Assembly (NCBI GenBank): GCA_029210015.1
Contig: JARGOE010000007.1
Location: forward strand, 1-45,927
DNA: 45,927 bases
From: Vicingaceae bacterium
Lineage (GTDB): Bacteria > Bacteroidota > Bacteroidia > Flavobacteriales_E > Vicingaceae
Direction: 5' to 3'
Shown here one piece after another: positions 201-45,528 of the stretch; position 1 is the first letter of the stretch, and every line of letters begins with the position of its first letter. The notes under the pieces are model-generated. The model was not told the DNA's origin. It made no database searches and saw nothing but the letters and a program-made list of their open reading frames with translations. The translations under genes and the position numbers were made by a program.

Positions 201-1651
201 TTACCTTTGTTTTTCTTATTAGGTTTTTCGTAAAGGTGTCTTCCTTTGTTTTTCTTTTTAATCTTAATAGAAGATGAGCCTATTTCACCATTATTAGATT
301 TTTCTGTAGATGATACAATCACTGGAACTTTTTTATCTTCTTCTTCTTGTTTTGCAACTTGTACCTGAACTTTTGCATTAACCTCTAATAAAACTACTTC
401 ATTTGCTGCTCTATCTTCTTCTGCTTTTTGAGCTAATTTTGCTGCAACTTCTTTTGCTTTACGTTCTTTTTCTTCTCGTTTTATTGCAGCTTCTTTTTCT
501 GCTAAAGCTTTAATTTCTTGTTCTGCTCTTTTTTTAGCTTCAGCTTGAGCTGCTAGTTTAGCTTTTTCTTCTTCTTTAGCATTTGCTAGTGCATTTTCTT
601 CTTCTTTTTTAGCTTTTTCTTCAGCTAATTTGTTCGAATTAGCTTCTTTTTCTAGTTTAGTTTTTTCTTCAGCTTCTTGTTTTGCTAATGCTTCTTTTTC
701 TTTCTTTTCTTTAGCTAACTTTTCTTCTTCTGCTTTTTTAGCAGCTTCTTCTGCTTTAGCTAACTCTTTTTGTTCAGCTTCAGCTTTAGCTAATGCTTCT
801 TGTTCAGCTTTCTCTTTAGCTAATTTTTCTTCTTCAGCTTTTTTTGCTGCTGCCTCTGCTTCTGCTTTAGCTATTGCTTCAGCCTCAGCTCTAGCTTTTT
901 CTTCTGCTCTCTGTTTTTCAGCTTCAGCTTTTTTAGCAATTTCAGTGTCAATTAATTTTAAGCGATCTTTTGCATCAGTTTTTTCTGGGCAAAATGACAA
1001 GGCTTTTTCATAATAGGTTTTAGCTTCATTCCAGTTCTTTTTAGCAAAAGTTTTGTTAGCTATTTTCATGGCGTCAGCACAATCCTTTTCTCTTTGTAAT
1101 TCGGCTTCTTTTTCTTTTTCAGCCTCTTCTTCACATTTATCTAACATTTCATTTAATGCATTTAATAAAGGAGCTGAATAAGCCATATCCCAGTCTATTA
1201 CATTCTTATTAGAAAAATATTTGGCCCTACCAATAGGTTTATCTAGCATTTCTGATTTAATACAGTTGTTAGGTTGCACCATAGTAATTTCAGCAACCAT
1301 ATCGGGGACTTTTTGTTTTCTTTTATCTGGTACACCAAAGGTGTTCATTACAATTTTTTTTGTAATAAATCCTGGTTTAGAAAACGTGACAACGTATTCC
1401 TTATCATACTCTAAAACTATTTTATATTCTCCTTTTCCATCCGAAGTTCCCGAAGCAATTGTTTTTCCATCAGCAATTGCAGAAATATTAATTCCAGATA
1501 TTGCGTCACCAGTATAATAGTCAGAAGTTACTCCATCTAAGAATACATTATCTTCCATCATTACATCTTCTTGTTTAACTCCATTTACTTGAGAAAAGTA
1601 AGAAGCAGCGTATAATAGAATAATAAAAAGTAGTGATAATGATTTTGTCAT
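167..1651 (-). CDS. Secreted Ala/Glu/Lys-rich coiled-coil protein with carboxypeptidase-regulatory-like domain
   Basis: This 494-residue protein begins with a hydrophobic signal peptide (about residues 1-24), so it should leave the cytoplasm. Residues about 37-125 look like a carboxypeptidase-regulatory-like beta-sandwich (GDAISGINISA, a DGKGEYKI loop). A short TPR-like segment follows near 190-225 (AKKNWNEAKTYYEKALSFCP). Residues about 235-425 are a very long, highly charged coiled coil of KAEEEKLAKEKAE-type repeats. The C-terminus is strongly basic. The layout recalls flavobacterial proteins in which the same N-terminal domain and TPR lead into OmpA, but no OmpA domain is present. The coiled coil could span the periplasm as in TolA; that is inference. 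It lies 24 nt downstream of smpB on the same strand. The function is unknown. Confidence 0.8.
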   Translation of the reverse strand: MTKSLSLLFIILLYAASYFSQVNGVKQEDVMMEDNVFLDGVTSDYYTGDAISGINISAIADGKTIASGTSDGKGEYKIVLEYDKEYVVTFSKPGFITKKIVMNTFGVPDKRKQKVPDMVAEITMVQPNNCIKSEMLDKPIGRAKYFSNKNVIDWDMAYSAPLLNALNEMLDKCEEEAEKEKEAELQREKDCADAMKIANKTFAKKNWNEAKTYYEKALSFCPEKTDAKDRLKLIDTEIAKKAEAEKQRAEEKARAEAEAIAKAEAEAAAKKAEEEKLAKEKAEQEALAKAEAEQKELAKAEEAAKKAEEEKLAKEKKEKEALAKQEAEEKTKLEKEANSNKLAEEKAKKEEENALANAKEEEKAKLAAQAEAKKRAEQEIKALAEKEAAIKREEKERKAKEVAAKLAQKAEEDRAANEVVLLEVNAKVQVQVAKQEEEDKKVPVIVSSTEKSNNGEIGSSSIKIKKKNKGRHLYEKPNKKNKGKGPTMKKRMVF

Positions 1652-22949: not shown

Positions 22950-23144
22950 TTATTCAAATAAACCGTAAACAATTTTCATTACTCTACTAAAAGAACTATC
23001 CATAGCAAAAATGACTAAAGCAAAAATAATTGAAGCTACCATAACTACAACCGAACTACTTTGTAACTCAGACCATGTAGGCCAAGAAACTTTATTAAAC
23101 AGTTCATCAACTGATTCTTGTATATATGTTCCAATCTTTGCCAT
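22950..23144 (-). CDS. secE: Preprotein translocase subunit SecE
   Basis: This 64-residue protein has an amphipathic N-terminal helix with VDELFNKVSWPTWSELQ (the conserved WPT motif) and one C-terminal membrane helix (about 29-48). That is the short one-helix SecE form. It clamps the SecY channel. It is placed between tRNA-Trp and nusG. Confidence 0.96.
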   Translation of the reverse strand: MAKIGTYIQESVDELFNKVSWPTWSELQSSSVVVMVASIIFALVIFAMDSSFSRVMKIVYGLFE

Positions 23145-23198
23145 AAGTTTTTTCTTTACTTATTATTAAAGTTTTTACTTTAATTCCAGTTTGTTTTG

Positions 23199-23271
23199 CA
23201 CGGGAGGAGAGACTCGAACTCCCGACACCTGGTTTTGGAGACCAGTGCTCTACCAACTGAGCTACACCCGT
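23199..23271 (-). tRNA. tRNA-Trp (anticodon CCA)
   Basis: The cloverleaf reads 5'-ACGGGTG...CTCCCGT-G on the minus strand, with D-arm GCTC/GAGC, anticodon stem CTGGT/ACCAG, anticodon CCA at 23236-23238 and T-arm GGGAG/CTCTC. The acceptor stem has a T-T mismatch at 6-67. The 3' CCA is not encoded. Confidence 0.96.
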
Positions 23272-23294
23272 AATTATATTTTTTTAAAGTCAAG

Positions 23295-23322
23295 AAAGGT
23301 ATCCGTATAAACGGATACCTTT
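23295..23322 (-). terminator. Perfect 12-bp hairpin between tuf and tRNA-Trp
   Basis: AAAGGTATCCGT and ACGGATACCTTT flank an ATAA loop. On the minus strand only a broken T-rich tract follows (CTTGACTTT), so termination may be partial, or the hairpin may be an mRNA 3' stabiliser or processing site before tRNA-Trp-secE-nusG. Confidence 0.65.
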
Positions 23323-23347
23323 TCTATGATAAAAACTATTACGTTTT

Positions 23348-24535
23348 TTATTTTATAATCTGAGTAACCTGACCTGCACCAACAGTTCTACCACCTTCTC
23401 TAATCGCAAATCTTAAGTTTTGGTTGATTGCAACTGGAACGATTAATTTAACTGTTATTGTTACATTATCTCCAGGCATTACCATTTCTCTTCCTTCTTC
23501 TAAGAAGATCTCACCAGTTACATCTGTTGTTCTAATGTAAAATTGAGGTCTGTATTTGTTATGGAAAGGAGTGTGTCTTCCACCTTCTTCTTTCTTCAAT
23601 ACATAAACCTCTGCTTTAAACTCAGAGTGAGGAGTAATAGAACCAGGCTTAGCAATTACCATTCCTCTTCTAATATCTGATTTTTCAATACCTCTTAATA
23701 AGATACCTACGTTATCACCAGCTTCACCTCTATCTAATATCTTTCTAAACATTTCAACTCCAGTAATAGTTGACTTCATGTTTTCGTCACCCATTCCTAA
23801 AATATCAACTTCATCACCTGTATTAGCAACTCCAGTTTCAATTCTACCTGTAGCAACAGTTCCTCTACCTGTAATTGAGAATACATCCTCAACTGGCATT
23901 AAGAAATCTTTATCTACATCTCTTGGAGGTAATTCAATATATGAATCTACTGCAGCCATTAATTCAGTTACTGTAGCAACCCATTTTTCTTCACCATTTA
24001 ATGCACCTAATGCAGAACCTGCAATAACTGGAGCATTATCTCCATCGTACTCATAGAAAGATAATAACTCTCTAATTTCCATTTCAACTAATTCTAATAA
24101 TTCTTCATCATCAACCATATCCACTTTATTCATGAATACAACGATAGATGGAATACCAACTTGTCTTCCTAAAAGAATGTGCTCTCTTGTTTGTGGCATT
24201 GGACCATCAGTTGCAGCAACAACTAAGATAGCACCATCCATTTGAGCAGCACCAGTTACCATGTTCTTAACGTAATCCGCGTGACCAGGACAATCTACGT
24301 GAGCGTAGTGTCTGTTTTCAGTTTCATATTCAACGTGTGAAGTATTAATTGTAATACCTCTTTCTTTTTCTTCAGGAGCATTATCAATAGTATCAAAATC
24401 TCTTAACTCAGCAAAACCTTGCTTTGCTAGTACTGTTGTAATTGCAGCTGTTAAAGTCGTTTTTCCGTGGTCAACGTGACCAATTGTTCCGATATTTAAA
24501 TGTGGTTTGGAACGATCAAAATTCTCTTTAGCCAT
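23348..24535 (-). CDS. tuf: Elongation factor Tu
   Basis: The 395-residue GTPase delivers aminoacyl-tRNA to the ribosome. G-box motifs are present: GHVDHGKTT (G1), RGITI (G2), DCPGH (G3), NKVD (G4) and SAL (G5). The beta-barrel domains 2 and 3 follow ([27 protein letters not shown]; the C-terminal [16 protein letters not shown]). It lies downstream of four tRNAs and uses their promoter. Confidence 0.99.
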
Positions 24536-24595
24536 GATTTATTGGTTTATTATTTATGTTTATTATTTACTTTTTAATTACTATATCTTTTTCAG

Positions 24596-24667
<72 letters not shown>

Positions 24668-24699
24668 TTAACCCGACATACTATTTAATGAAAAAAAAG

Positions 24700-24772
24700 A
24701 GCGAGAGACGGGGCTCAAACCCGCGACCCTCAGCTTGGAAGGCTGACGCTCTATCAACTGAGCTACTCTCGC
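24700..24772 (-). tRNA. tRNA-Gly (anticodon TCC)
   Basis: Acceptor GCGAGAG pairs fully with CTCTCGC, the anticodon stem is TCAGC/GCTGA, the anticodon TCC is at 24737-24739, and T-arm GCGGG/CCCGT has one G-T pair. CCA is not encoded. Confidence 0.96.
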
Positions 24773-24817
24773 TTTTAATTTCATCTAAATAAAGGTGTCT
24801 TTATTTATAAGTTTCTG

Positions 24818-24899
24818 TGGGGGAAGCAGGATTCGAACCTACGAAGGCGTAGCCAACAGATTTACAGTCTGTCCTCGTTGACCGCTTGAGTATTCCCCC
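24818..24899 (-). tRNA. tRNA-Tyr (anticodon GTA)
   Basis: This 82-nt class II tRNA has acceptor GGGGGAA/TTCCCCC, anticodon stem ACAGA/TCTGT, anticodon GTA at 24863-24865, a long variable arm and T-arm GTAGG/CCTGC. The discriminator is A. Confidence 0.96.
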
Positions 24900-24951
24900 A
24901 ACGTTTCAATTTTTTCAAAATTTAACACTTAACATTTTAAGTGTTTTTAAG

Positions 24952-25025
24952 AGCCGATAGAGGGACTCGAACCCACGACCTGCTGATTACAAATCAGCTG
25001 CTCTAGCCAGCTGAGCTACATCGGC
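24952..25025 (-). tRNA. tRNA-Thr (anticodon TGT)
   Basis: Acceptor GCCGATG/TATCGGC, anticodon stem GCTGA/TCAGC and anticodon TGT at 24989-24991. The T-stem GTGGG/CCCTC has one T-T mismatch. It is the first tRNA of the operon, directly after the promoter/terminator element. Confidence 0.95.
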
Positions 25026-25056
25026 TTCTTTCTATTTTAGTAAGCTTTTTTAGCAT

Positions 25057-25087
25057 AAAAAAACAGACCTTTCCTTGAAAAGGTCTG
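25057..25087 (-). terminator. Intrinsic terminator after hpf, adjoining the tRNA-tuf promoter
   Basis: CAGACCTTT and AAAGGTCTG form a 9-bp stem with a 6-nt loop, followed on the minus strand by seven T. Its first base directly follows the -7 box of the tRNA-tuf promoter, so locally started transcripts would lack part of the 5' arm. Confidence 0.8.
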
Positions 25088-25118
25088 CAAATGTATAAAA
25101 GATTTTATACTTAACAAA
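25088..25118 (-). promoter_or_regulatory. Promoter of the tRNA-Thr/Tyr/Gly/Thr-tuf operon
   Basis: On the minus strand TTTG (25118-25115), exactly 19 bases, then TACATTTG (25095-25088): an ideal Bacteroidota promoter. The spacer and the first bases of the -7 box hold an 18-bp palindrome with arms GTATAAAA and TTTTATAC (25093-25110). Confidence 0.8.
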
Positions 25119-25145
25119 CAAATAAATATTTATTTTTTAAAAATA

Positions 25146-25448
25146 TTAACCTTTAAGTTTTTCTTTATGTTTTTTCAATTGTCTTCTTAATGCTTCAACT
25201 GCATTATCAGTAGCTTCTTCAAAAGACTTACATTGCTTTTTAGCGAAAATATCGTTACCAGGAACTAATAACTTAATCTCAGCAACTTTATTCTCAGTGT
25301 CGTGAGAGTTTTCAACCTTAAGAATAACTTCGCCATCAATTATTTTGTCATAATAATTTGCAAGCTTATCAACTCTATTTTGGATAAACTCAATTAATTT
25401 TCTGTCTGCATCAAAGTGCACTGAACTAATTTTTAAATTTACTTTCAT
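25146..25448 (-). CDS. hpf: Ribosome hibernation promoting factor (short HPF/RaiA family)
   Basis: The 100-residue protein has the HPF/YfiA fold: VNLKISSVHFDADRKLIEFI, then RVDKLANYYDKI, and a C-terminal helix (FEEATDNAVEALRRQLKKHK). It binds the decoding channel of idle ribosomes and blocks translation. The length is that of the short form, without the dimerisation domain of long HPF. It lies 21 bases after xerC and is preceded by a perfect AGGAGG with 7-nt spacing, unusual for this phylum. A terminator follows, overlapping the tRNA-tuf promoter region. Confidence 0.93.
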   Translation of the reverse strand: MKVNLKISSVHFDADRKLIEFIQNRVDKLANYYDKIIDGEVILKVENSHDTENKVAEIKLLVPGNDIFAKKQCKSFEEATDNAVEALRRQLKKHKEKLKG

Positions 25449-25455
25449 CTCTTAT

Positions 25456-25461
25456 CCTCCT
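25456..25461 (-). promoter_or_regulatory. Perfect Shine-Dalgarno sequence of hpf
   Basis: AGGAGG lies seven bases before the hpf ATG. I found no comparable site before the other genes in this window, which agrees with the general lack of Shine-Dalgarno use in Bacteroidota. Confidence 0.75.
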
Positions 25462-25469
25462 AAATTTAA

Positions 25470-26351
25470 TTAAGCCTTTGGATGGGCTTGTTTATGAATA
25501 TTTTTTAATTTTTCAATTGTGTTGTGTGTATAAACTTGGGTAGCAGATAAATTAGCATGACCTAATATTTCTTTAATAGTATTTAAGTCCGCTCCGTTGT
25601 TTAGCATATGGGTAGCAAAAGTATGTCTAAGAACGTGTGGGCTTTTTTTACTTACCGTAGTTACTTGACTAAGGTAGGAATTTACAATACTGTAAACAAG
25701 TTTTGGATATAGTTTTTTGCCAATTTTTGTTAAAAAAAAGTAGCTGTTTTTAGGTGTAAGTTTTTCTCTTTCTTTAATGTATTCCTTTATAAGTGTGGTT
25801 AGGTTTTTACCTATAGGTATTAATCTTTCTTTGTTTCTTTTTCCAAGAACTTTAATAGTACTGTTATTAAAATCGATTGAATCTAATTTTAATTCAATTA
25901 ATTCGGAAAGTCTAGTGCCTGTAGCATAAAAGAGTTCTAAAATCAATTGATCCCTTTTTCCTTCATAGTCATCGTCATATTTAATGTTTTCAAAAAGATT
26001 ATTGATTTCATTTTCTCCAACAAATACAGGGAGTCTTTTAGATGTTTTTGGTGTGATTACTTTTAATAAAGGGTTTTTGTCAACTAATTTATTTTTTAAT
26101 AAGTGTTTGTAAAAAGATTTTAAGCTAGAAATCTTTCTGTTGATTGTTCTTGGAGAAATACCTTCTTCAATAAGTTTTACTATCCATGACCTAATAAATG
26201 AGGCTGAAACATCCTTGAATGATTCTGTTTCGAATTCTAAAAGAAGAAATTGTTGGAATTGCTCTAAATCTTTTTGGTAAGCAGTAACGGTATGCAGTGA
26301 ATATCTCTTTTGATGCTGGAGGTAATCGCAAAAATCAGAAATATGAGGCAT
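25470..26351 (-). CDS. xerC: Tyrosine recombinase XerC-like
   Basis: The 293-residue protein has the N-terminal SAM-like core-binding domain (YSLHTVTAYQKDLEQF) and the C-terminal catalytic domain. The tyrosine-recombinase residues are all visible: Arg in ATGTRLSELIEL, Lys in LGKRNKERLIP, His and Arg in HVLRHTFATHML, His in LGHANLSATQ and the nucleophile Tyr in ATQVYTH. It probably resolves chromosome dimers at dif, as housekeeping Xer proteins do. The rpsU-xerC-hpf order is typical of Bacteroidota, so this is not a phage integrase. Its ATG directly follows the T-run of a strong terminator. Confidence 0.93.
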   Translation of the reverse strand: MPHISDFCDYLQHQKRYSLHTVTAYQKDLEQFQQFLLLEFETESFKDVSASFIRSWIVKLIEEGISPRTINRKISSLKSFYKHLLKNKLVDKNPLLKVITPKTSKRLPVFVGENEINNLFENIKYDDDYEGKRDQLILELFYATGTRLSELIELKLDSIDFNNSTIKVLGKRNKERLIPIGKNLTTLIKEYIKEREKLTPKNSYFFLTKIGKKLYPKLVYSIVNSYLSQVTTVSKKSPHVLRHTFATHMLNNGADLNTIKEILGHANLSATQVYTHNTIEKLKNIHKQAHPKA

Positions 26352-26414
26352 AAAAAAAGTAGTTTATCTTTAAAACGTAATAACTCTAAAAAAGTTATAA
26401 AGATAAACTACTTT
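26352..26414 (-). terminator. Strong terminator/attenuator between rpsU and xerC
   Basis: Arms AAAGTAGTTTATCTTTA and its exact complement (17 bp) enclose a 25-nt loop that itself can form a TAACT/AGTTA hairpin. On the minus strand seven T follow, and the next bases are the ATG of xerC. xerC and hpf must therefore depend on read-through of this element, or on a promoter that I cannot see. Confidence 0.8.
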
Positions 26415-26440
26415 GTAGTATTTTAAAAAGAATAGGTTTC

Positions 26441-26632
26441 TTATTCTTCTGCTTTTCTTAATTGCTCAACATAGATAGCTTTAATTTTTTCAGCTCTCTT
26501 TACAACAGACGGCTTGTCATATTGTTTTCTGTTTCTTAACTCTTTTAAAGCACCAGTTCTTTCAAACTTTTTCTTGTATCTTTTAAGAGCTCTCTCTATG
26601 TTCTCTCCTTCTTTAATCGGAATAATAATCAT
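26441..26632 (-). CDS. rpsU: 30S ribosomal protein bS21
   Basis: The 63-residue basic protein matches bS21 (EGENIERALKRYKKKFERTG, then RNRKQYDKPSVVKRAEKIKA). bS21 sits near the 3' end of 16S rRNA. In the Flavobacterium johnsoniae ribosome it is known to help hide the anti-Shine-Dalgarno sequence. Only a partial ribosome-binding motif (AGGA, four bases from ATG) is present. A strong terminator follows the gene. Confidence 0.96.
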   Translation of the reverse strand: MIIIPIKEGENIERALKRYKKKFERTGALKELRNRKQYDKPSVVKRAEKIKAIYVEQLRKAEE

Positions 26633-26665
26633 CTTGTCCTGTATTTAAATTTTATTTAAGGGCTG

Positions 26666-26696
26666 CAAATGTAGGTAATAAAATAATACCTACAAA
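26666..26696 (-). promoter_or_regulatory. Promoter of rpsU-xerC-hpf
   Basis: On the minus strand TTTG (26696-26693), 19 bases, TACATTTG (26673-26666). The spacer region carries a 7-bp inverted repeat GTAGGTA/TACCTAC (26671-26693). This starts immediately beyond the stop of the upstream acyl-CoA dehydrogenase gene and may also act as that gene's weak terminator. Confidence 0.75.
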
Positions 26697-26699
26697 TAA

Positions 26700-27839
26700 T
26701 TACTTTAAAATTTCTCTTGATATTACAACTTTTTGTATTTCAGATGTTCCTTCACCAATAGTCATTAGTTTAGAATCTCTTAAATATTTTTCAGCTGGAT
26801 ATTCTTTTGTGTAACCATAACCACCCATTATTTGTACTGCCTCATTACCACATTTAACAGAAACTTCACTAGCATAATACTTTGCGAAAGCTCCTTGTCT
26901 AGTCATAGGTAGTTTTTTGTTTTTTAAATCTGCAGCTTGATAGGTTAGTAATTCTGCAGCTTCAACTTCTGTAGCCATATCTGCTAATTTAAAAGCAATA
27001 GCTTGAAATTGTGATATTGGCTTACCAAATTGCTCTCTTTCTTTAGCATATTGTAGAGAAGCTTCATAAGCGCCTCTTGCAACTCCACAGCTTAATGCCG
27101 CAATTGAAATTCTTCCACCATCTAGTATTTGCATGGCTTGTACGAATCCCATTCCAACTTCTCCGATTACATTCTCTTCAGGAATTCTAACATTGTCAAA
27201 AATTAGCTCAGCAGTTTCACTAGCTCTAACACCTAATTTGTCAATGATTTTTACTGCAGAAAATCCAGGGGTACCTTTTTCAATAATAAATGCAGTAATA
27301 CCTTTACTATCTAATAATTCTCCGGTTCTTATTAAAACAACAGCAACATCTCCACTTAAACCATGAGTAATCCAGTTTTTTGTTCCGTTAAGAACCCACT
27401 CATTTCCTTCTTTTACAGCAGTAGCTTTCATACGCATAGCATCAGAACCTGTGTTTGCTTCAGTTAATCCCCAAGCACCAATCCATTCACCACTAGCTAA
27501 TTTTGGTAAATATTTTTTCTTTTGCTCTTCACTTCCGTGATAATAAATGTGTCCGGTGCACAAAGAATTGTGTGCAGCAACACTTAAACCAACTCCTCCA
27601 CAAACTTTTCCTAATTCTATAAGAGCAGTTACGTATTCATGATATCCAAATCCAGATCCACCATATTCTTCAGGAATGTATATTCCTAACAATCCTAGTT
27701 CTCCCATCTTTTTCATCACATCAATTGGGAAATGTTCATCTTTATCCCATTGATATCTGTTAGGTTTGATTTCCTTCTCAGCAAAATCTCTAACCATTTG
27801 AGCTATCATTTCCTGATTTTCTGTGTGTCCAAATTCCAT
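26700..27839 (-). CDS. Acyl-CoA dehydrogenase
   Basis: The 379-residue FAD enzyme oxidises acyl-CoA to trans-2-enoyl-CoA. It shows the family signatures WGLTEANTGSDAMRMKATA (FAD/substrate) and QIMGGYGYTKEYPAEKYLRD. The catalytic base is the glutamate of GEGTSEIQ near residue 367. Size and sequence fit short- or medium-chain (butyryl- or isovaleryl-type) members; the chain length cannot be decided. It lies 11 bases after apt and ends the likely AGCS-HhH-apt operon. A second paralogue lies at 32279-33421. Confidence 0.93.
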   Translation of the reverse strand: MEFGHTENQEMIAQMVRDFAEKEIKPNRYQWDKDEHFPIDVMKKMGELGLLGIYIPEEYGGSGFGYHEYVTALIELGKVCGGVGLSVAAHNSLCTGHIYYHGSEEQKKKYLPKLASGEWIGAWGLTEANTGSDAMRMKATAVKEGNEWVLNGTKNWITHGLSGDVAVVLIRTGELLDSKGITAFIIEKGTPGFSAVKIIDKLGVRASETAELIFDNVRIPEENVIGEVGMGFVQAMQILDGGRISIAALSCGVARGAYEASLQYAKEREQFGKPISQFQAIAFKLADMATEVEAAELLTYQAADLKNKKLPMTRQGAFAKYYASEVSVKCGNEAVQIMGGYGYTKEYPAEKYLRDSKLMTIGEGTSEIQKVVISREILK

Positions 27840-44085: not shown

Positions 44086-44115
44086 TTGTCAGATTAAAAA
44101 TAATTACTAAATTTG
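44086..44115 (+). promoter_or_regulatory. Promoter of rpmG
   Basis: TTG (44086-44088), 19 bases, TAAATTTG (44108-44115), followed by CAGTCCC. This matches the rpsU and tRNA-tuf promoters in spacing and in the bases after the -7 box. Confidence 0.75.
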
Positions 44116-44144
44116 CAGTCCCTTAAAATTAAAGAATAGGAAAA

Positions 44145-44327
44145 ATGGCAAAAAAAGGAAACAGAGTTCAGGTAATTTTAGAATGTACTGAACATAAAGA
44201 AAGTGGTAAGCCAGGTACTTCAAGGTACATTACTACTAAAAATAAAAAAAACACTCCTGATCGTATTGAGTTGAAAAAATACAACCCAATATTAAAGAAG
44301 GTTACTGTACATAAAGAAATTAAATAA
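44145..44327 (+). CDS. rpmG: 50S ribosomal protein bL33
   Basis: The 60-residue basic protein has [14 protein letters not shown] and [20 protein letters not shown], typical of bL33. Only one cysteine is present, so this is the zinc-independent form. rpmB (bL28), often placed just upstream in related genomes, is absent here. DUF4295 and ftsY follow. Confidence 0.95.
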
Positions 44328-44360: not shown

Positions 44361-44513
44361 ATGGCAAAGAAAACAGTTGCATCGTTACAAAAAGCAGGAA
44401 AAAGCTTAACTAAAGTGATAAAAATGGTTAAGTCTGAAAAGACTGGTGCCTATTCATTTAGAGAAGCTATTGTACCAAACGATAAAGTACAAGATTTTTT
44501 ACAGAAAAAATAA
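44361..44513 (+). CDS. DUF4295 protein, Bacteroidota ribosomal protein bL38
   Basis: A small basic protein of 50 residues starts at ATG 44361 (MAKKTVASLQKAGKSLTKVI) and ends in DKVQDFLQKK. It matches DUF4295, placed between rpmG and ftsY in Bacteroidota. To my recollection this family was identified as a genuine large-subunit protein, bL38, in the Flavobacterium johnsoniae ribosome structure. It is co-transcribed with rpmG after a 33-base gap. Confidence 0.85.
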   Translation: MAKKTVASLQKAGKSLTKVIKMVKSEKTGAYSFREAIVPNDKVQDFLQKK

Positions 44514-44526
44514 TTACACAAATGTG

Positions 44527-44534
44527 TATCTTTG
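44527..44534 (+). promoter_or_regulatory. -7 promoter box for ftsY
   Basis: TATCTTTG matches TAnnTTTG and directly precedes a terminator hairpin. No -33 TTTG lies at the usual distance. Confidence 0.45.
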
Positions 44535-44535
44535 T

Positions 44536-44563
44536 CCCTCGCCTCAAAGCGGGGGATTTTTTT
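44536..44563 (+). terminator. Intrinsic terminator after rpmG/DUF4295, adjoining the ftsY promoter box
   Basis: CCCTCGC and GCGGGGG form a 7-bp stem (one T-G pair) with a 6-nt loop, followed by A and eight T. The 5' arm begins two bases after the -7 box. Confidence 0.8.
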
Positions 44564-44574
44564 TACCATAAAAT

Positions 44575-45528
44575 ATGGCATTTTTTAATATATTTTCTAA
44601 AGAGAAAAAAGAGGTTTTAGATAAAGGTCTAGATAAAACCAAACAAAGTTTTTTTTCAAAATTAACCAGGGCTGTAGGTGGGAAGTCTACTGTAGATGCT
44701 GAGGTTTTAGATAACTTAGAAGAAATTTTAGTTACATCTGATGTTGGTGTAGATACGACTCTTAGAATAATTGAAAAAATTGAGGAGCGTGTTGCTAAAA
44801 ATAAATATTTAGGAACATCAGAATTAAATCAAGTTCTTCGAGAAGAGATAGCCTCTTTACTAGAGGAGAATAATACAGGAGATTATAAAGAAATTGAAAT
44901 TCCGCAGCAAGAAGATCCTTATGTGATTATGGTTGTTGGAGTTAATGGAGTTGGTAAAACAACGACTATTGGTAAGTTAGCTCATCAATTAAAGAAAAGT
45001 GGAAAATCAGTTATTTTAGGAGCTTCTGATACTTTTAGAGCCGCTGCTGTTGATCAATTGAAAATATGGGCTTCACGTGTTGATGTTCCAATTGTTGAGC
45101 AAGGAATGGATGCAGACCCGGCTTCAGTTGCTTTTGACACATTGCAATCTGCTAAAGCAAGAAATGCAGATGTAGTTATTATTGATACTGCTGGGCGATT
45201 ACACAATAAAGTGAACTTAATGAATGAGCTTTCTAAGATTAAGCGTGTAATGCAGAAAGTAGTGCCTGATGCACCTCACGAAATATTATTGGTTTTAGAT
45301 GGTTCTACAGGGCAGAATGCTTACGAACAAGCCAAGCAATTTTCTTTAGCCACAGAAATAAATGCCTTGGCAATTACCAAATTAGATGGAACTGCTAAAG
45401 GTGGTGTTGTAATTGGGATTTCTGATCAATTTAAAATTCCAGTTAAATATATTGGCGTTGGAGAAGGAATAGAAGATTTGCAAGTATTTAATAAGTACGA
45501 GTTCGTTGATTCGTTATTCAAGGAATAA
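44575..45528 (+). CDS. ftsY: Signal recognition particle receptor FtsY
   Basis: The 317-residue GTPase docks SRP-bound ribosomes at the membrane. The NG domain is complete: the four-helix N domain (about 15-95), P-loop VVGVNGVGKTTTIGKLAHQL, DTFRAAAVDQLKIWA, DTAGRLHNK and AITKLDGTAKGG. The long acidic A domain of E. coli FtsY is absent, as in many Bacteroidota. Its promoter box is fused with the terminator of the preceding ribosomal protein operon. Confidence 0.97.
   Translation: MAFFNIFSKEKKEVLDKGLDKTKQSFFSKLTRAVGGKSTVDAEVLDNLEEILVTSDVGVDTTLRIIEKIEERVAKNKYLGTSELNQVLREEIASLLEENNTGDYKEIEIPQQEDPYVIMVVGVNGVGKTTTIGKLAHQLKKSGKSVILGASDTFRAAAVDQLKIWASRVDVPIVEQGMDADPASVAFDTLQSAKARNADVVIIDTAGRLHNKVNLMNELSKIKRVMQKVVPDAPHEILLVLDGSTGQNAYEQAKQFSLATEINALAITKLDGTAKGGVVIGISDQFKIPVKYIGVGEGIEDLQVFNKYEFVDSLFKE

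Follow-up and report, generated by a model that had tools for sequence, protein, structure and literature searches.

The main result of this analysis is the deep conservation of a promoter-terminator fusion at the junction between hpf and a tRNA-tuf unit. Its geometry, its folding energetics, its conservation, the compensatory changes in its stem and its swap with separate terminators were all observed, and the junction is probably a dual-use insulator, which would end the hpf unit and start the tRNA-tuf unit.

The window, i.e. the whole stretch of 45,927 nucleotides that was analysed, corresponds to one contig in a metagenome-assembled genome from Flavobacteriales, and Vicingus is among the relatives of its hpf. 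The minus strand carries, in order, a tyrosine recombinase gene, hpf, tRNA-Thr(UGU), tRNA-Tyr, tRNA-Gly, tRNA-Thr(GGU), and tuf, and the order from hpf through the four tRNA genes to tuf is common in Bacteroidia. The gap between hpf and tRNA-Thr(UGU) is 120 bases long and contains both a promoter and a terminator. The features of the locus are as follows.

25146-25448, minus strand: hpf, ribosome hibernation-promoting factor, the upstream unit (open reading frame; match to PF02482, Ribosomal_S30AE, above the cut-off)
25115-25118, minus strand: -33 element TTTG (sequence; spacing in relatives)
25088-25095, minus strand: -7 box TACATTTG of the tRNA-tuf promoter (sequence; consensus TAnnTTTG, PMC6847099, PMC7366714; kept in relatives)
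25082-25083, minus strand: predicted start site, within the 5' arm (from the box-to-start spacing of F. johnsoniae, PMC6847099)
25078-25088, minus strand: 5' arm of the terminator stem, its first base common to the -7 box (folding, scan)
25063-25073, minus strand: 3' arm of the terminator stem (folding, covariation)
25057-25063, minus strand: T-run, the expected release site of the hpf transcript, its first T also in the outer G-U pair (sequence, scan)
24951-25025, minus strand: tRNA-Thr(UGU), first gene of the downstream unit (ARAGORN)
23348-24899, minus strand: tRNA-Tyr, tRNA-Gly, tRNA-Thr(GGU), and tuf, the remainder of the downstream unit (ARAGORN, open reading frame)

According to previous studies, promoters of the Bacteroidota primary sigma factor consist of a -33 TTTG and a -7 TAnnTTTG element (PMC6847099, PMC7366714, PMC9723704). 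The minus strand upstream of tRNA-Thr reads TTTG-N19-TACATTTG, a textbook promoter of this kind with a TAnnTTTG box and a TTTG at about 19 nt, and TTTG lies 18-20 nt upstream of the -7 box in 67 of 93 spacers from relatives. In probable promoters of F. johnsoniae, 4-5 nt separate the -7 box and the start (PMC6847099), and in F. psychrophilum the box lies at -12 to -5 relative to the start (PMC9723704). The F. johnsoniae spacing places the predicted start of the tRNA-tuf unit at 25083 or 25082, which agrees with the preliminary description, where a start about five bases downstream, inside the 5' arm of the terminator, had been proposed. Beside these elements, a perfect 8-bp inverted repeat, GTATAAAA-TC-TTTTATAC (25093-25110, minus strand), reaches from within the promoter spacer into the -7 box, of which it covers the first three bases; it is present in several close relatives and absent from Flavobacteriaceae, and is a possible operator or a coincidence. 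Elsewhere in the window, the promoter-like TAAATTTGCAGTCCC (44108-44125, plus strand) stands ahead of an open reading frame at 44145, and its box is followed by GCAGTCC and no hairpin; GC-rich start regions of this kind may characterise promoters in general.

The terminator stem CAGACCTTT/AAAGGTCTG consists of nine Watson-Crick pairs starting at 25087, the base right after the -7 box, which bears out the earlier claim that the box ends exactly where the 9-bp stem begins. A G-U pair at either end extends it to an 11-pair stem, which takes in the last G of the box. The loop is CAAG, and this stable, G+C-bearing stem-loop is immediately followed by a run of seven T, as in intrinsic terminators. 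The full hairpin has a folding energy of -14.4 kcal/mol and a z-score of -5.0 relative to dinucleotide shuffles; its stem is the longest among the terminator-like sites in 23500-27500, and the scan found the hairpin on the minus strand only. Since about half of the 5' arm lies upstream of the predicted start, the full hairpin could form only in incoming RNA, and RNA from the predicted start at 25083 or 25082 would retain a remnant hairpin of -3.7 or -2.1 kcal/mol, about the value of shuffled sequence.

Spacers downstream of hpf were gathered from named genomes, the family of the window and the wider phylum, and 94 distinct Bacteroidia spacers before tRNA-Thr(UGU) were compared. A hairpin fused to the box was scored in 64 of the 94, or 62 (about two thirds) once two spurious folds were removed. 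Counting the first base after the -7 box as offset 0, the stem starts at -1 in 36 of these 62 spacers, at +1 in 19, at -2 in six, and at +2 in one. Fused spacers were found in Vicingus (L005), Flavobacterium antarcticum (L074), Psychroserpens (L066), and Crocinitomix (L040), as well as in Lentimicrobiaceae (L024) and other Bacteroidales (L060, L061, L072). The 5' arm varies by lineage (GCAGACCTTTTT, GCAGTCCGTTAG, GCACTCCC, GCAGCCGTTTCG), and the 3' arm matches it each time. The coupling of box and hairpin, for which the preliminary description had suggested a comparison across Flavobacteriales, is thus conserved in that order and extends to Bacteroidales. The Crocinitomix group has a gene of about 187 codons on the same strand that separates hpf from the tRNA, and it is behind this gene that the fused hairpin sits. 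In ten genomes where the operon stands behind another gene or starts at tRNA-Tyr (L345-L354), the promoter is kept and a comparable hairpin is absent, one of them having a short stem with a T-run. Both arrangements fit a hairpin that serves incoming transcription. Among the phylum-level stretches (L151-L170), no tRNA was found after hpf.

The covariation of the stem was analysed in an alignment of 20 representatives, in which 97.9% of the alignment cells of the seven outer pairs are paired. Three stem pairs are altered on both sides, and the covariation score was higher than in any of 500 shuffles or any slid control, a count that is not a probability as the shuffles leave relatedness in. Compensatory change thus maintains the stem, as expected of an intrinsic terminator, with the same reservation that the shuffles do not remove relatedness. 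At columns 16/42, a G-C pair has changed to C-G, and because its 5' base precedes the expected start, this pair would be possible only in read-through RNA from upstream. The compensatory change at this pair points to selection for terminating read-through rather than for a function in the leader of the tRNA transcript.

The folding energies of the relatives follow the same pattern. Energies were computed for 57 fused junctions whose T-run is clear. Their best terminator-like hairpin has a median of -13.9 kcal/mol, which falls to -3.1 kcal/mol when the RNA begins at the fifth base after the box and to -1.5 kcal/mol when it begins at the sixth; 56 of the 57 would lose hairpin stability in promoter-started RNA. 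With -8 to -10 kcal/mol left in the stem from the fifth base onwards, the Crocinitomix group is the weakest case for an escape of promoter transcripts, which would be less clear there.

If the hairpin ends hpf transcription, a different terminator would be expected in lineages without it. Such a separate terminator lies upstream of the promoter in 18 of the 30 unfused spacers and in three of the 64 fused ones (Fisher p 8e-9), a table of raw scores in which L015, L031, and L109 are fused but were scored unfused (longer fold or short T-run), and L113/L114 were scored fused through spurious long folds. The other 12 unfused spacers have no upstream terminator under the criteria used, and some of them were mis-scored. 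Family f2 (L111-L117) has a strong upstream terminator, followed by a promoter with a decayed arm only. With hand-corrected scores for L015, L031, L109, and L113/L114, the tuf tree gave 11 trait changes, and its well-supported independent pairs were on average about 2.3 concordant and 0 discordant. Shared descent thus weakens the swap test, which is non-significant once relatedness is counted, four pairs being too few.

According to the model that fits these observations, the bases right after the -7 box would serve both as the start region of the tRNA-tuf unit and as the 5' arm of the hpf terminator. A polymerase coming from hpf would copy the entire arm, allow the full hairpin to form and stop at the T-run. 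A polymerase from the tRNA-tuf promoter would begin 5-6 bases into the arm and make RNA without the outer pairs; because the remnant would be weak and apart from the U-tract, it would read on into tRNA-Thr, and the leader would presumably be cut off by RNase P. A full hairpin in hpf RNA and a truncated one with escape in promoter RNA had been postulated from the outset, and the predicted escape is consistent with the energetics both here and in 56 of the 57 relatives. Likewise, the proposed choice between terminating and escaping, with its presumed initiation and termination, fits the covariation and the separate terminators in most unfused spacers.

An alternative, which we regard as unlikely, is that the GC-rich nucleotides following the box (GCAGACC, GCAGTCC, GCACTCC) are primarily a promoter discriminator or initial transcribed sequence, on which the terminator was built opportunistically. 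Their role would be, for example, growth-rate control, and the fusion would be a by-product of compaction, while promoter transcripts would still escape. Similar bases occur after hairpin-less boxes (L032, L058, L068, L102, L103, L111-L119) and at the promoter at 44108 of the window, and because they follow hairpin-less boxes too, the hairpin may have arisen later than this GC-rich start region. However, this explanation accounts neither for the retained, covarying 3' arm and T-run nor for the association of the hairpin with the absence of another terminator. It concerns the origin of the arm more than the role of the junction, and is compatible with a dual-use insulator.

It is rather improbable that the fusion couples the two units, beyond separating them, by promoter occlusion or polymerase recycling. 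A polymerase from hpf would cross the whole tRNA-tuf promoter and terminate about 25 bp past the predicted start, so hpf transcription during hibernation could block the promoter of the tRNA and EF-Tu genes, or a terminated polymerase could pass straight to the tRNA-tuf promoter. Recycling of this kind by the E. coli polymerase was shown in vitro (PMC6978380) and discussed in PMC11347151. Against such coupling, several lineages have a separate upstream terminator instead. If true, it would provide a built-in link between ribosome hibernation and the synthesis of translation components across Bacteroidia.

We consider it very unlikely that the hairpin acts as a leader element in the tRNA-tuf transcript, i.e. 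as an attenuator or a protein-binding leader that regulates the operon. The remnant and the T-run do lie inside the leader of the tRNA transcript, and the folding energy of the 58-nt leader is -12.7 kcal/mol (z -1.9). However, the outer covarying pairs depend on bases that precede the expected start, and on its own the remnant folds like shuffled sequence. With the predicted start at 25083 or 25082, the transcript would hold only the remnant of -3.7 or -2.1 kcal/mol, unlike an attenuator. In 23000-26800, only tRNA passed the Rfam cut-offs and no described leader family did. An attenuator is thus not favoured, given the weak remnant, the lack of an Rfam leader match and the covarying pairs upstream of the expected start.

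Finally, it is extremely improbable that an ordinary terminator and an ordinary promoter came to adjoin by chance in an AT-rich spacer, and the comparison of relatives effectively refutes this for the hpf/tRNA locus: although fused sites are in no clear general excess in the sampled stretches of four genomes and the window, apart from this locus and a few more, the same junction offset recurs in 62 distinct spacers with compensating changes, and shuffling the sequence after the box gave a fused hairpin with a T-run in 18 of 1240 trials.

The fusion is a property of the hpf/tRNA junction, not of these genomes generally. A covariance model of the element gave exactly one match per genome in 22 of 46 genomes of the family and, under strict filters, matched in 35 of 246 genomes of the class; 24 of the 27 class-level loci inspected sit between hpf and tRNA-Thr(UGU). 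The expected number of boxes at any one given terminator offset is 0.05-0.07, as estimated from sampled stretches of two genomes, and all background rates of fused sites come from such samples. A genome-wide habit of fusion was rejected on the sampled stretches of four genomes and the window. A pattern search for the box followed by GC and T5 in 46 genomes was too loose, its matches being mostly stemless and slightly above the reversed control.

Several individual sites were also recorded. Of the three remaining class-level loci, two are in genomes of one family (L262, L271), where the element precedes tRNA-Thr(UGU) and hpf was not detected upstream; in L271 the hairpin is retained and the T-run lost. 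The third, in L273 (about 1501-1547, minus strand), is a fused box and terminator, TAAATTTGCACTCTCG...GGGAGTG-T7, that lies elsewhere, upstream of a very small, highly basic open reading frame. Another, TATATTTGTCCGACTC...GAGTTGGACA-T7, is found in L172 (about 13402, minus strand), where the ATG of the next open reading frame comes immediately after, so that the leader would consist almost entirely of the terminator remnant. The window itself has another -7 box fused to a terminator, TATCTTTGTCCCTCGCC...GCGGGGGA-T8 (44527-44565, plus strand), between a 50-aa open reading frame (44361-44513) and an ftsY-like one (44575-45528). Most of the 29 relatives compared retain the terminator at this site without the TTTG box, so the fusion there is lineage-specific; it is present in the close relative L320 with a different arm.

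At the hpf/tRNA junction, one short sequence would have two readings depending on where the RNA starts: a terminator for RNA from upstream, and a harmless leader for RNA started within it. The sequence has been retained across the class together with compensating mutations, which makes a direct test of this idea in cultured Flavobacterium possible. A further warning is that terminators predicted beside Bacteroidota promoters may serve the upstream unit alone, and the junction suggests a compact insulator part for use in Bacteroidota. The promoter and the terminator are of known kinds, while their fixed fusion at the hpf/tRNA-Thr junction is without description in the open-licence literature, where our searches returned neither this junction nor a -7 box to which a terminator arm is fused; this is weak evidence of novelty.

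E. coli has an operon thrU-tyrU-glyT-thrT-tufB, which shares the gene order tRNA-Thr, Tyr, Gly, Thr, tuf with the downstream unit and differs from it in promoter type and neighbour, lacking the hpf junction. The tRNA-tuf promoter resembles other Bacteroidota primary-sigma promoters in both elements and their usual spacing, whereas the last base of its box and its start region double as a terminator arm. Similarly, the hpf terminator has the stem, the short loop and the T-run directly after the stem of a Rho-independent terminator, and differs from an ordinary one in that the predicted start of the next unit falls about halfway along its 5' arm. In the fHbp intergenic region of Neisseria, the terminator of the upstream gene likewise sets read-through to the gene of a downstream promoter, but promoter and terminator were described as separate, with no common arm noted (PMC8026042). 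Neighbouring terminator-promoter pairs of E. coli also place a terminator near a downstream promoter on the same strand (PMC6978380, PMC11347151); those are separate elements at variable distances, whereas the hpf/tRNA junction has common bases and a nearly fixed offset.
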